41,916 nt of DNA. It comes from an uncultured Ruminococcus sp. Lineage in GTDB: Bacteria; Bacillota; Clostridia; Oscillospirales; Acutalibacteraceae. The notes beneath the pieces were generated by a model. That model was not told the DNA's origin and did no database searches. It saw only the letters and a list, made by a program, of their open reading frames with translations. Location of the stretch: NCBI GenBank assembly GCA_902767845.1, contig CACXIV010000011.1:1-41916 (forward strand). Direction: 5' to 3'. How positions within the stretch are numbered: the first letter of the stretch is position 1; the number at the start of each line of letters is the position of its first letter. Shown one piece after another: positions 36,617 through 39,978 of the stretch. A program made the translations under genes and the position numbers.

Positions 36617-36645
36617 TTGACAAACCCGGTTTTATTTGATATAAT
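36617..36645 (+). promoter_or_regulatory. Strong consensus promoter upstream of the structured RNA/tRNA-Leu
   Basis: TTGACA (36617-36622), exactly 17 bases, TATAAT (36640-36645), both perfect matches. Transcription starts near 36652, well before the tRNA at 36934. Confidence 0.9.
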
Positions 36646-36651
36646 AACGCT

Positions 36652-36912
36652 TGTGGATAAAGCGAAACGCTCCGCCTCGGCAACTCTCAGCCGTGTAAAA
36701 ATATGAGAGAATACGCAGGTATGGCGGAATTGGTCGTGTTGCGAGCGCTGCCGGCGGCAGATAAAGCGAGCAAAAACGAGGTTTGAAATAAGGAGTACAA
36801 GGAAGTGCTTTAGCACGACGCGGTACGACTGTATTTCAAGCGGGACACACCGCGCATGGTTCAGGTTACACCACGTCGGTGAACTTGCAAATCCGATTTA
36901 ATATCCTGAAAA
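36652..36912 (+). ncRNA. Candidate structured noncoding RNA with two tRNA-Leu-like fragments
   Basis: About 260 nt between a perfect promoter and tRNA-Leu with no protein frame. Hand folding gives an H-type pseudoknot (36678-36681 with 36690-36693; 36684-36689 with 36704-36709), a closing helix (CAGG 36716-36719 with CCTG 36905-36908), and inside it four hairpins: 36734-36779 (CTGCC/GGCAG core), 36783-36839 (eight-bp arms TTGAAATA/TATTTCAA with nested GTAC/GTAC and GTGC/GCAC), 36840-36853 and 36859-36884. GCAGGTATGGCGGAATTGGT (36715-36734) looks exactly like the 5' end of a tRNA-Leu, and CGCGCATGGTTCAGGT (36851-36866) like its anticodon arm, but the 3' half of that stem is mismatched. It may be a degenerate, interrupted tRNA-Leu, or a new RNA class. 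Pairings were found by eye. Confidence 0.55.
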
Positions 36913-36933
36913 ACTTTTTACAATTTCATATTT

Positions 36934-37020
36934 GCACCCGTGGCGGAACTGGCAGACGCGTATGGTTCAGGTCCATATTTTCGAAAGGAAGTGCAGGTTC
37001 AATTCCTGTCGGGTGCACCA
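36934..37020 (+). tRNA. tRNA-Leu (anticodon CAG)
   Basis: Eighty-seven bases with encoded CCA. The acceptor stem GCACCCG pairs with CGGGTGC; the D arm is GCG...CGC with GGCAGA; the anticodon loop TTCAGGT closed by TATGG/CCATA holds CAG at 36968-36970; a long variable arm (TTTTCGAAAGGAA) is class II as in Leu; the T arm is GCAGGTTCAATTCCTGT. It decodes CTG codons. Confidence 0.96.
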
Positions 37021-37030
37021 AGCGAAGATG

Positions 37031-37072
37031 ATCCGAACCATTCTCCGGCTGGAGAATGGTTCGGATTTATTC
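37031..37072 (+). terminator. Terminator after tRNA-Leu
   Basis: A perfect 16-bp stem (37031-37046 with 37051-37066) with a four-base loop, followed by a T-rich tail TTATTCTT. Confidence 0.85.
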
Positions 37073-37170: not shown

Positions 37171-37817
37171 ATGGAGTTGCTATTCTCTGAAATATACTAT
37201 AGTGTTTTTTCAAAAATAAAAAACGGAAACGTGGATTTGTTTTTGTGCGGCGGAGCAAGTACTAAGAAGAAAAAGTCCTATAGAGATATGTTTAATGAAG
37301 AATTAAAAAAATATAACCGTATTTCAGAATTATACCCGGAAGATCTATTCCTTGAGATTTTGAACAGAAAAAATATGATTTGCTAACTCTTGAAAAGTTT
37401 TTAGCTGATAACAGTGACTTTATTTTAATCGTTTGCGAAAGCCCCGGTTCATTTACTGAACTAGGTGCATTTGTAAATAATAATGCAACTGTAGATAAAG
37501 TTATCATACTTTTACAAACTAAATATAAAAATGCAAAGAGTTTTATTCGGCAAGGTCCTGTTCAATATATTTATTCAAAAAACAAAGAACGTGTCATATA
37601 TTATAATTCGGATATTTCAGATGCGATTTCGAGAATTAAAAAACTTGTTTTACCTCGAGCTAGAATATCCTCTTTTGTTTCATTCAAAGATTTAGATACA
37701 ATAACAGGTCAGTACAATTTTATTCTGTTGCTGTTGTATTTTTATAATACATTACCAATCAAAATTTTGAACGAAAATATCAAGAGTCTTTATTTTGAGA
37801 AGGGGTATTGTCGTTAA
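37171..37817 (+). pseudogene. Frameshifted and truncated homologue of the retron-Eco1 (Ec86) effector
   Basis: Two frames form one protein. The first (37171-37386) reads LFLCGGASTKKKKSYRDMF...YPEDLFLEILNR and stops; the second (to 37817) continues LLTLEKFLADNSDFILIVCESPGSFTELGAF...KSFIRQGPVQYI. Inserting one A in the run of six A at 37368-37373 joins them seamlessly (NRKKYDLLTLEK), giving about 215 residues. From memory this matches the nucleoside deoxyribosyltransferase-like effector of retron Eco1 (FLCGG, YPEDLF, SLENILAEAVD, ESPGSFTELGAFSNN, RSFINYGPV), which has about 307 residues, so the C-terminal third is also missing. No reverse transcriptase is nearby. The region is strikingly AT-rich against its neighbours, which suggests transfer. 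A -1 slip at the A-run could restore the frame, so it may not be dead. Confidence 0.75.
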
Positions 37818-37924: not shown

Positions 37925-38098
37925 TTACAGCTGAACGTCCTCTGTTGCTTCCGTCTTTGAGAACGGGCAGCCCTCCGGAGCCTCCGGAAGCTCCTCGCCG
38001 TTGATCGCCGCGGCGATCAGGTCGCGGTGCAGATAAAGTATCGTAAGTCCCGCGCCCAAAACCAGTCCGCCGACAAATCCGATTATAGCCTTGTTCAT
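37925..38098 (-). CDS. Small membrane protein, 57 residues, unknown function
   Basis: One membrane helix (MNKAIIGFVGGLVLGAGLTILYL, residues 1-23) with Gly-zipper character, then a short amphipathic, acidic tail (EELPEAPEGCPFSKTEATEDVQL). The start ATG 38098 has an excellent GGAGGTGATT ribosome site eight bases upstream, which is the best evidence that it is real. It is the last gene of the minus-strand unit, 32 bases after the epimerase-LicD fusion. No function can be assigned; it may be an accessory of the glycopolymer machinery. Confidence 0.75.
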   Translation of the reverse strand: MNKAIIGFVGGLVLGAGLTILYLHRDLIAAAINGEELPEAPEGCPFSKTEATEDVQL

Positions 38099-38130: not shown

Positions 38131-39974
38131 TCACAGACGGTCGTATTTTCCTATATCGCAGAGCTTGATCTCGTGACATCCGAGCCTTGTGCTCAGCGGA
38201 GCAAGCTCCATGTAATCGCCGTACAAAAACCTCAGGTACTCGTCGTACCTTTCGGGCACGGGCAGCGGCACGCCCTCAAAGTCAAGGCGTATCTCGTTTT
38301 GCAGAAGCTCGATCGGGAAGCTTCCGTTGTACACGTTCCTGCCCATTCCGTCGTAGAGGAATTTGGCGTTTTTCTTATGCTTAAAAAAGCTGATTGTATG
38401 GTTCATCAGCCAAAGGCTGAACCTCAGCGGAAATACCCTTATGCAGAAGTTTGTGACCGCGGTCTGGAACCTGCTGCCGTTTTTAGTTTTGCGCTTGTTC
38501 CACTTGTTGAGCACCAGCGCGCGCGTGAACACGGTCATCGCGAGGTGGAGCTTTTGACCGAGCGCGGAGTTGGCGGTCTTGTCGTGGCAAAAGATGTCGA
38601 GCGCTATACCTATATTGATCGAGCTGTGGGATTTGGCGAGCTCGGTGGCGAAAACGGTGTTGTCTACCCTCAGCTTGGCGAACTCGTAAAAGTTGTTTTT
38701 ATCGGTCTTGTTGGAGTGGAAGGACAAAAACGCGGGAAGCTCCTTTGGGGCGATCTCGCAGAATTTATCGTAATCCTCCCTGAGCATCATGATGTCCGAG
38801 TCGTCGTCCCACGGGATAAAGCCCTTGTGCCTTATCGCGCCGAGCAGCGTGCCTCCGCCCAAAAAGTAGCGGATGCCGTGCTTGCGGCAGATCCTGTCGA
38901 CCTCCGTGAGCGCCGCGAGCTGTATCTTCTGAATGGCGTCGAGCCGCCCGTCGTGGGTGTTCGGAAGGCTCGCTCCGGCGGCGTTTTCCATATAGCTCAT
39001 TACACAGAGCTCAAGCGCCGTTTCAAGCCTGAGTGCGGGCACGCAGCCGTTGTTCTCGATCTTGCTGCCGAGTATGGCGCAGGCGTTCAGCTCGCCTTTT
39101 TCGCCGAGGGTTATCCTTGCGGTCTCGGGGTAGATATCGTGCAGCACTGCGGCGAGCATGCCGGTGGAAACGGTGGAGCCGATCCCCGTGACATTGTAGA
39201 CCTCGTCGCTTTTCAGCGCCGTAAGGGAGTATATTATCGCCCTGAAAACATCGGAGATATATACAAAGGAATACTTCCTGTCCGAGTTGAAGAGCGTGTA
39301 TTCTCTGCCGTTCGCCACAGCCTCGAACAGCCCGTCAAACGGAGTTTTCAGTCCTGCGCGGGCGCCGAGCACAATGCCGGTCCTCAGCGTGGTGAGCTCA
39401 AAGCCGCCGGACTTTTTCTCGCAGTTGAGGTATGCCTCGACCGCGCGGAGAAGCTGACCCTCAAAGCAGCTCTCGGAGGTGTTGTCAATAGACGCGTACT
39501 CGTTTTCGGCGTATACCCTGCCGTGCTTAGCGGCGCCGTAGATCCTGCTGTCGCTCAGCGCGGTAAGCCTTGCCGAGCTCATTTTGGCGATCCTGCAAAG
39601 CTCTCTGACCGCGGCAAGCTCGGTTTTGAGCTCGTCGCCGAAGCTTTTTACCGCCTCGCCGCACATGCCGGTGTAAATAACGTGATCGGCTTTTTTTATT
39701 TCCGATAAAGAATCATATTCGACAAAATCAAAGTCGTCCCTGAGCACCAGCCCGGCAAAATCCTCCCTGATCCTGCTGTTGTCCGTATCGGAAAAAATAA
39801 CCCTTATGTTCAGTCCGCGGGTTTCGTTCTGATACAAAAGGGCATAGCAAAGACAGCGGGCAATAGAATGTCCGCTGATCAGTATTGTTTTATTTTTGAG
39901 CTTTTGAAGCTCGTCTTTTTCGACCTGCGGCAGCGCCGCCCAGTCCGCTTCAAATTCGTTAAGTTTAGATTTGA

Positions 39975-39978
<4 letters not shown>
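38131..39978 (-). CDS. Fusion of degenerate SDR epimerase domain with LicD-family transferase
   Basis: A 615-residue two-domain protein. Residues of about 25-330 resemble an NAD-dependent epimerase/dehydratase: NKTILISGHSIARCL in place of the GxxGxxG loop, SDSRIYGA, FVYISDVFRAI and YNVTGIGSTVS. At the position of the usual YxxxK the sequence reads CFEGQLLRAVEAYL, so both catalytic residues appear changed (alignment by eye). Residues of about 345-610 are LicD-like: FLGGGTLLGAIRHKGFIPWDDDSDIMM (374-398) is the signature of this nucleotidyltransferase-fold family, known for adding phosphocholine to teichoic acid and lipopolysaccharide. The start overlaps the tagH-like stop by four bases, so it belongs to the glycopolymer export unit and probably decorates the polymer. 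Confidence 0.85.

Follow-up and report, generated by a model that had tools for sequence, protein, structure and literature searches.

Introduction

Actinobacteriophages with tRNA-dependent lysogeny are temperate phages that use tyrosine integrases (Guerrero-Bustamante & Hatfull 2024, PMC10865867); the same paper cites one Lactobacillus johnsonii prophage with features of this lifestyle, and its Discussion considers a wider spread of tRNA-dependent integration plausible and in need of study. Islands in tRNA genes, as presented in the Islander work, restore the gene that they split and use tyrosine integrases (PMC4383910), and a review of integrative and mobilizable elements (IMEs), in its treatment of serine recombinases, describes Tn4451 as having low target specificity and others as disrupting dispensable genes (PMC5704250). 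Here we describe a locus in the window (the whole stretch of DNA that was analysed, 41,916 nucleotides (nt) of contig CACXIV010000011.1 from an uncultured Ruminococcus sp.) at which a tRNA-Leu gene, headed by a pseudoknot, was apparently cut at its anticodon loop by a mobile element and is followed by a replacement tRNA. We conclude that this locus is very probably a scar, the left attachment site (attL) of a tRNA-Leu-targeting integrative element that brings a replacement tRNA.

Two kinds of known molecules serve as points of reference. The element attachment site (attP) of a large serine recombinase (LSR) is an imperfect inverted repeat around a core. Small H-type pseudoknot riboswitches, including preQ1, SAM-II, and SAM-V, have a short stem, a second stem formed by its loop, and an A-rich crossing loop.

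Results

A split tRNA-Leu gene and its probable replacement in the window

Reading of the window gave the following predicted features.

36617..36645, + strand: consensus sigma-70 promoter, TTGACA-17-TATAAT (12/12 matches, TG before the -10 box)
36653..36709, + strand: pseudoknot leader RNA (covariance model R1 and covariation)
36653-57/36671-75: leader stem P1, with inner pairs 36662-63/36669-70
36678-81/36690-93: leader stem P2
36684-88/36705-09: leader pseudoknot stem S2
36694-704: A-rich crossing loop of the leader
36715..36733, + strand: 5' portion of the resident tRNA-Leu that was split, consisting of the acceptor strand GCAGGTA and the start of the D-arm (by sequence reading; contiguous with the anticodon arm in insert-free relatives)
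36734..36850, + strand: 117-nt dispersed repeat that interrupts the D-loop of this half (boundaries approximate to a few nt; empty sites in relatives)
36851..36866, + strand: remainder of the 5' half, comprising the 5' strand of the anticodon stem and the 7-nt loop TTCAGGT, with the junction (attL) immediately 3'
36867..36889, + strand: attP-like half-site of an LSR, TACACCACGTCGGTGAACTTGCA
36934..37020, + strand: replacement tRNA, a complete tRNA-Leu(CAG) with acceptor GCACCCG (ARAGORN; Rfam tRNA, 50.7 bits)
37030..37067, + strand: terminator-like hairpin of the tRNA unit (17-pair stem, 8 G-C, T-rich tail; consensus match only)

ARAGORN and Rfam recognized a single tRNA across the window, the tRNA-Leu(CAG) at 36934-37020, and the window contains no tRNA-Leu 3' half besides that tRNA's own. 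Because the acceptor strand of the split half (GCAGGTA) differs from that of the complete tRNA (GCACCCG), the two were originally separate genes. The original prediction for this locus had described perfect -35 and -10 boxes at 17-base spacing, no terminator ahead of tRNA-Leu, and a tRNA-Leu 5' end lying 117 nt from a copy of the anticodon arm. All three descriptions agree with our results: the boxes are those listed above, a terminator scan of the window listed none on the + strand between the promoter and the tRNA-Leu(CAG), and the tRNA-Leu sequence that stops at 36733 resumes at 36851. Its suggestion of a tRNA-Leu gene broken by an insert applies twice over, as the gene appears to have been interrupted by an integrative element at the anticodon loop and, in the remaining half, by the 117-nt repeat.

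The same prediction had treated ~260 nt of this locus as one possible new structured RNA, or else perhaps a known large RNA such as raiA. The minimum-energy fold of 36652-36915 had a z score of -2.14, with 5/200 shuffles equally good; this is only modestly better than shuffles, and thus folding energy alone does not support one 260-nt RNA. When 59 genomes (counting that of the window) were searched, 34 had matches, and the matching pieces corresponded to query positions 1-134, 134-252, and 252-313, with the middle piece absent and the outer two adjoining in several relatives. Judged from these homologues, the leader, the split tRNA half, and the 117-nt insert are three separable parts rather than one 260-nt RNA, and the claim of a new structured RNA holds for the conserved pseudoknot leader that makes up the first 57-60 nt and has no Rfam match, and fails for the whole. 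Length and location would suit a known large RNA such as raiA, but Rfam gave no raiA hit at its gathering threshold or with E values as high as 10. Between 36580 and 37060, Rfam found nothing on the + strand beyond the tRNA up to E 10, the sole other hit in this interval being a sub-threshold antisense match over the tRNA. A raiA (RF03072) search of the window genome gave no hit, but it also hit 0/14 control genomes, so this negative carries no weight. The chance that the 260 nt are such a known RNA is negligible.

Integrative islands in related genomes

Comparison of related genomes shows the arrangement of which the window appears to retain one end: a tRNA-Leu gene split at the anticodon loop, a displaced 3' half, islands of 22-37 kb with an LSR and a relaxase, inverted half-sites, and a replacement tRNA. 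In genome G017 (locus L003), promoter, leader, and tRNA-Leu follow one another unsplit. In G012 (L004), promoter region, leader, and 5' half are as in G017; next come the half-site, another pseudoknot, and a complete but different tRNA-Leu. The G012 5' half is located near 39.69 kb, and the 3' half of the resident gene at G012:C3:17118-17168 (100% over 51 nt), ~22 kb apart on the same contig and strand; the corresponding halves are ~37 kb apart in G002 (R. bromii) and ~22 kb apart in G060. When rejoined, the halves of G012 matched the unsplit G017 tRNA-Leu at 87/87 positions and those of G002 at 82/87; the position-wise value for G060, 50/87, is not meaningful because the length differs by one. 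ARAGORN identified the rejoined halves of all three genomes as tRNA-Leu(cag). Applied to the three island sequences, it found one complete tRNA-Leu in each, the replacement, and called neither half; no functional tRNA is rebuilt at either junction in these sequences.

The attL (...TTCAGGT) and right attachment site (attR; ...CATCAGGT) of G012, G002, and G060 have a common 6-nt core, TCAGGT. The attR half-site is an inverted repeat of the attL half-site at 19/26 positions in G012 and 20/26 in G002, the feature of LSR attP sites; 0/10000 shuffles reached the G012 match, and the G002 figure was obtained without shuffles. Adjoining the replacement tRNA of G012, on the opposite strand and facing it, is a 551-aa LSR with PF00239, PF07508, and PF13408 (Resolvase, Recombinase, and Zn-ribbon) domains, with a MobA/VirD2-like relaxase (PF03432) behind it. 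G002 has a MobA/VirD2-like relaxase and an LSR frame with one stop, and the G060 LSR was identified by 99% identity; the relaxase scan covered G012 and G002 only. ABC-transporter-like frames were seen by eye between the ends in G012 and G060. The relatives' islands thus carry a relaxase and an LSR between attL and attR, as an IME would, instead of the tyrosine integrase of a temperate phage. Tyrosine integrases occurred in 18/18 genomes asked, and none of the places listed fell within the examined parts of the G012, G002, or G060 islands.

These islands bear on a reading in which the split half and the attP-like sequence form a tRNA-mimic attenuator, or a decoy, controlling the tRNA downstream, with no recombination scar. 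Conservation of the motif after the loop in many families and recurrent arrays of leader, half, leader, half, and tRNA would be consistent with such a device. The displaced 3' half and the islands, the adjoining LSR, and the inverted half-sites argue against it, as does the mismatch between the acceptor of the half and the downstream tRNA at several loci, such as L048, L112, L035, and the window. We dropped this highly unlikely reading, which was largely refuted once the displaced 3' half was found; the tRNA-derived regulatory RNA proposed in the original prediction is likewise unsupported. A group I intron in the anticodon loop was also rejected, as it had no Rfam match and would leave the second 5' half unexplained.

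Split halves and recombinases across loci

We collected 70 unique uninterrupted split halves with a pattern that requires the loop, a set from which the window's repeat-interrupted half is excluded. All had the same junction, with 14 different anticodon 5' stem sequences. The motif NRCRYYACNTCNGTG (≤2 mismatches) directly followed 57/70 halves, and other sequences followed the remaining 13. The next tRNA-Leu 5' end lay 47-208 nt past the half in 63/70 cases, at 120-125 nt in 37 of these 63. A strict -35/-10 pair was present in 0/63 linkers between half and tRNA, and a relaxed promoter-like pair was present in the 260 nt upstream in 54/63; we infer that the upstream host promoter drives the downstream replacement tRNA. 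A strict 22-nt half-site pattern matched 2/295 genomes of the order compared to 22 for the leader model, and was therefore too strict to use. At L259 and L263, the T-arm of tRNA-Leu is broken by another sequence (GTTCAAGTCC then GTGAACCCTTTTTAAGGG...), and here too a tRNA-Leu 5' end comes next, possibly reflecting another element that uses the T-arm of the same gene.

LSR relatives were identified by tblastn (E≤1e-4), some at only 27-32% identity. One lay within 1.5 kb of tRNA-Leu at 30/192 CAG/UAG loci, in 29/30 cases on the opposite strand and directed towards the tRNA. Among loci with ≥900 nt of sequence past the tRNA (70/192 were too short and were left out), an LSR relative was found within 1.5 kb at 17/30 loci with a split half compared to 7/92 without (Fisher p 6.6e-8). 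The pattern had missed halves in L253, L254, and L048, and moving these gave 20/33 compared to 4/89. These loci came from searches that targeted the parts in question, and the frequencies therefore do not represent genomes in general. At 13 of the 17 loci with both a split half and a recombinase, a pseudoknot stood between the half and the replacement tRNA.

We also compared end units, the non-coding 128-130 bp from loop to pseudoknot. Those of L257, L259, and L265 (G660, G493, and G569) were 99.2, 99.2, and 97.7% identical, respectively, to that of L260 (G786), and the four genomes belong to families f55, f43, f43, and f76, respectively. The rpoB DNA of G786, G493, and G569 was 68.7-74.6% identical (rpoB was found in 6/9 genomes asked, and not in G660, G521, or G592). 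By eye, the flanks of aligned end units had no common sequence, and L257 and L262 had a common downstream flank with different end units. At the level of these alignments, our results show that the end unit spreads laterally. A 6S RNA gene (Rfam, 98.2 bits) lies near the element end in G786 (L260:96-278, - strand).

Near-identical interiors with differing neighbours, and split halves without a nearby LSR (13/30), could also suggest that a gene-less unit of half-site, hairpin, pseudoknot, and tRNA is mobile by itself, or that homologous recombination between tRNA genes spreads it. The halves, however, keep their own anticodon stem up to the loop, and recombination across the 38-nt half would seldom produce the 14 stems observed; moreover, two-ended islands were present in all three cases followed. 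Such a mini-element is quite unlikely and was dropped when the displaced 3' half was found.

A phage origin was considered and rejected. An exact-pattern scan of viral contigs gave 6 stretches, with one real leader (L247) beside a host-type tRNA-Leu; two others (L242 and L246) were 25-bit matches without a tRNA, and three had no model match. The half-site pattern had one chance match on viral contigs (L250), the end unit had no match in phage records, and its plasmid matches began at query position ≥142, essentially covering the tRNA only.

Evidence weighed at the window

Several observations count against reading the window as the scar of such an element. No LSR was found in the window by tblastn up to E 10, which gave chance matches only (the rest of the genome was not searched), and attR was found neither in the window nor in its 87%-complete genome. 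Compared to a relaxase and an LSR between attL and attR, the window holds only an attL-like scar and the tRNA, and an element there must consequently be inferred from relatives. The window pseudoknot precedes the dead half, and the replacement tRNA has none of its own. Among the relatives, 7/70 split halves have no tRNA-Leu within 260 nt, including L090, L165, and L225 with >1 kb following; a relaxed promoter-like pair occurs in 9/63 linkers between half and tRNA; and 13/30 split-half loci with enough sequence show no LSR. As 144/187 unique leaders lack any split half, the pseudoknot is not tied to integration. Two side observations belong here as well. The recombinase frame at L325:16805-18448 (a Ruminococcus bromii YE282-type element) has one in-frame stop, and this copy may be inactive. 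A second resident-type tRNA-Leu 3' half, inverted and without a half-site, occurs at G012:C3:20447-20496 (+) and G060:C19:11569-11618 (+), ~3 kb from attR. We nonetheless favour the integrative-element account, in which the window would be a scar that kept attL and the replacement tRNA, with the element lost or elsewhere; the window would once have held such an element and then lost it.

A pseudoknot leader upstream of tRNA-Leu

Leader covariance model R1 was built from 21 aligned sequences, including the window's, with only P1 and P2 paired, and scored 75.8 bits at the window leader, a sequence in its own alignment. The model matched 75/150 genomes of the genus, 22/295 of the order, and 23/391 of the class (window genome counted in each); these searches used stricter filters, with which some weak matches were lost. 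A pattern scan of named genomes gave at least 119 stretches, mostly from Clostridia with some scattered titles from other phyla, and R. bromii YE282 and R. flavefaciens SAb67 and ND2009 were among the matches listed. Neighbouring tRNAs were analysed at 86 loci, consisting of 80 of the at least 119 genome loci and all 6 viral stretches. The nearest tRNA within 400 nt was tRNA-Leu CAG/UAG for 66/85 model matches (E≤0.01), within 120 nt for 52 of these 66, and was another tRNA for none. The other 19 matches comprised 5 that were low-scoring (21-25 bits: L242, L246, L150, L195, and L123), tRNA-less, and chance-like, and 14 that lay close to the end of a locus or >400 nt upstream, in most cases ahead of split halves. 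In the class search, tRNA-Leu followed the leader at 18/19 new loci. The leader had no match in Rfam (15), and among the open-licence PubMed Central (PMC) articles listed in literature searches, none dealt with this leader or with LSR elements located in tRNA-Leu. By its distribution and its covariation, the leader is a structured RNA family without an Rfam match, located just upstream of tRNA-Leu(CAG/UAG) in many gut Clostridia.

At L196, L206, and L239 the pseudoknot comes after a complete tRNA-Leu-like gene, directly past its CCA in L196 and L239. At L248:411-1545 (G120), what comes after the leader and split half is no tRNA but a reductase-like frame containing an in-frame stop; a tRNA-Leu(UAG) lies ~0.9 kb later.

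S2, which is unpaired in the model, joins the P2 loop with the sequence past the A-rich TGTAAAAAT, and its pair variants include CTCTC/GAGAG, TCCTC/GAGGA, CTCCG/CGGAG, GTCTGA/TCAGAC, and many more. We measured covariation in 77 representatives with <85% similarity, a cut that removes relatedness only partly, and compared it to shuffles in which the 3' parts were dealt among sequences. The mean best score for S2 was 14.16 compared to 9.49 (standard deviation (SD) 0.305) in shuffles, with 0/300 reaching it, and for P1 was 12.56 compared to 11.38 (SD 0.25), with 0/200 reaching it; a few of the 77 had just 3-4 S2 pairs. In the 69 representatives without a split half upstream, as judged by the search pattern, the S2 score was 14.07 compared to 9.56 (SD 0.31; 0/500). 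As the S2 signal is equal without the split half, the leader seems to be kept for a purpose of its own; because 144/187 unique leaders occur without a split half, its job should concern the tRNA itself. P2 was mostly invariant (CGG/CCG in 148/159 parsed sequences, from 179 in all), with two-sided changes seen by eye in G120 (CAG/CTG) and in L094 and L115 (CGCC/GGCG). The pseudoknot of the original prediction is therefore present and backed by covariation. The prediction had proposed Rfam and covariance analyses, and would have been abandoned without conservation or covariation; in these analyses, the leader had no Rfam match, was conserved in relatives, and had covarying helices (S2 and P1).

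What the pseudoknot does can be answered tentatively. We favour, though only as a possibility, a portable 5' leader that would enable correct folding and RNase P delivery of a tRNA behind any RNA; possibly, too, it is a leader RNA class dedicated to tRNA-Leu CAG/UAG, a cis control or maturation device carried by elements, with which a promoterless replacement tRNA would work as soon as integration brings it behind a host promoter, leaving the host dependent on the element. A somewhat doubtful alternative, almost as likely as the portable leader, is a ligand- or protein-sensing, riboswitch-like RNA that sets tRNA-Leu supply independently of mobile elements, a proposal that competes with the leader reading only and not with the split gene. 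Consistent with sensing, the loops are conserved (CTCGG ... CCGTGTAAAAAT) while S2 varies, as in riboswitches, the nearest tRNA is tRNA-Leu CAG/UAG in 66/85 matches and never another, and S2 covaries in the 69 representatives without a split half. Terminator-like hairpins also precede the pseudoknot in 23/42 linkers, compared to 11.5 by mononucleotide shuffles (3/42 linkers follow a complete tRNA). This excess is weak, however, and the hairpins are on the upstream side of the pseudoknot; there is no evident expression platform, and the window has no + strand terminator between leader and tRNA.

The 117-nt repeat and neighbouring genes

The 117-nt repeat had 15 matches in G033, 9 in G015, and 1 in the window genome, and matched no named family in Rfam. 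Its long stem changes on both sides between copies (by eye), for example GTGCAAAATA/TATTTTGTAC and GTCTAAAATA/TATTTTAGAC, and by our interpretation this stem is probably the hairpin of three nested stems that had been predicted without coordinates. Copies frequently start at GTAG, immediately after an upstream frame, and in many cases the TAG stop of the preceding gene appears to come from the repeat (window; L022, L027, and L274-L299). At L024 ~1450-1770 (G057), a tRNA-Ser has a duplicated leader and 5' part bearing a relative of the repeat, followed by an intact tRNA-Ser.

Downstream of the tRNA, the window contains:

37171-37817: two overlapping frames with no Pfam match, between the tRNA and the LicD-family gene
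At 37925: small frame, between the tRNA and the LicD-family gene
38131-39978, - strand: LicD-family gene

The frames at 37171-37817, which come after the tRNA's terminator-like hairpin, are perhaps a single gene with a broken frame. A frame similar to the window's LicD-family gene sits upstream of tRNA-Leu in G002 (by eye), which suggests rearrangement in the window.

Discussion

In the mechanism that we propose, an LSR would recombine attP with the resident tRNA-Leu at its anticodon loop, splitting the gene. The complete tRNA-Leu of the element, which has no recognisable promoter, would then lie ~50-210 nt inside the left end, and the host tRNA promoter would read through the dead 5' half into this replacement. 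A single stroke would both destroy the resident tRNA-Leu and place its replacement behind the resident promoter, and the host would presumably need the tRNA so supplied.

This mechanism would widen tRNA-dependent integration, described in actinophages, to mobilizable elements with serine recombinases in gut Clostridia. The leader adds an RNA family without a match in Rfam 15 that accompanies tRNA-Leu in 75/150 sampled genomes of one genus. Leader and split half together would provide a simple marker of element ends, and the locus would offer a natural test of tRNA expression and maturation behind a foreign RNA.

In build, the leader resembles the preQ1, SAM-II, and SAM-V pseudoknots; unlike them, it has no Rfam match and precedes a tRNA rather than a protein gene. 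As in Islander-type islands and tycheposons, a displaced tRNA fragment marks the far end; unlike in the Islander islands as described, a second complete tRNA is supplied. A single serine recombinase, very short direct repeats, a Firmicutes host, and mobilizability are shared with serine-recombinase IMEs (Tn4451), but here a tRNA gene is split and replaced, unlike in the elements that the review describes (PMC5704250). The closest system is tRNA-dependent lysogeny, whose testable features are found in the relatives' islands except for the tyrosine integrase and the phage. Compared to that system, the islands carry an LSR and a relaxase and cut within the anticodon loop, and a replacement tRNA that appears to lack a promoter, often with a pseudoknot leader, lies directly behind attL, where it would be expressed by host read-through.
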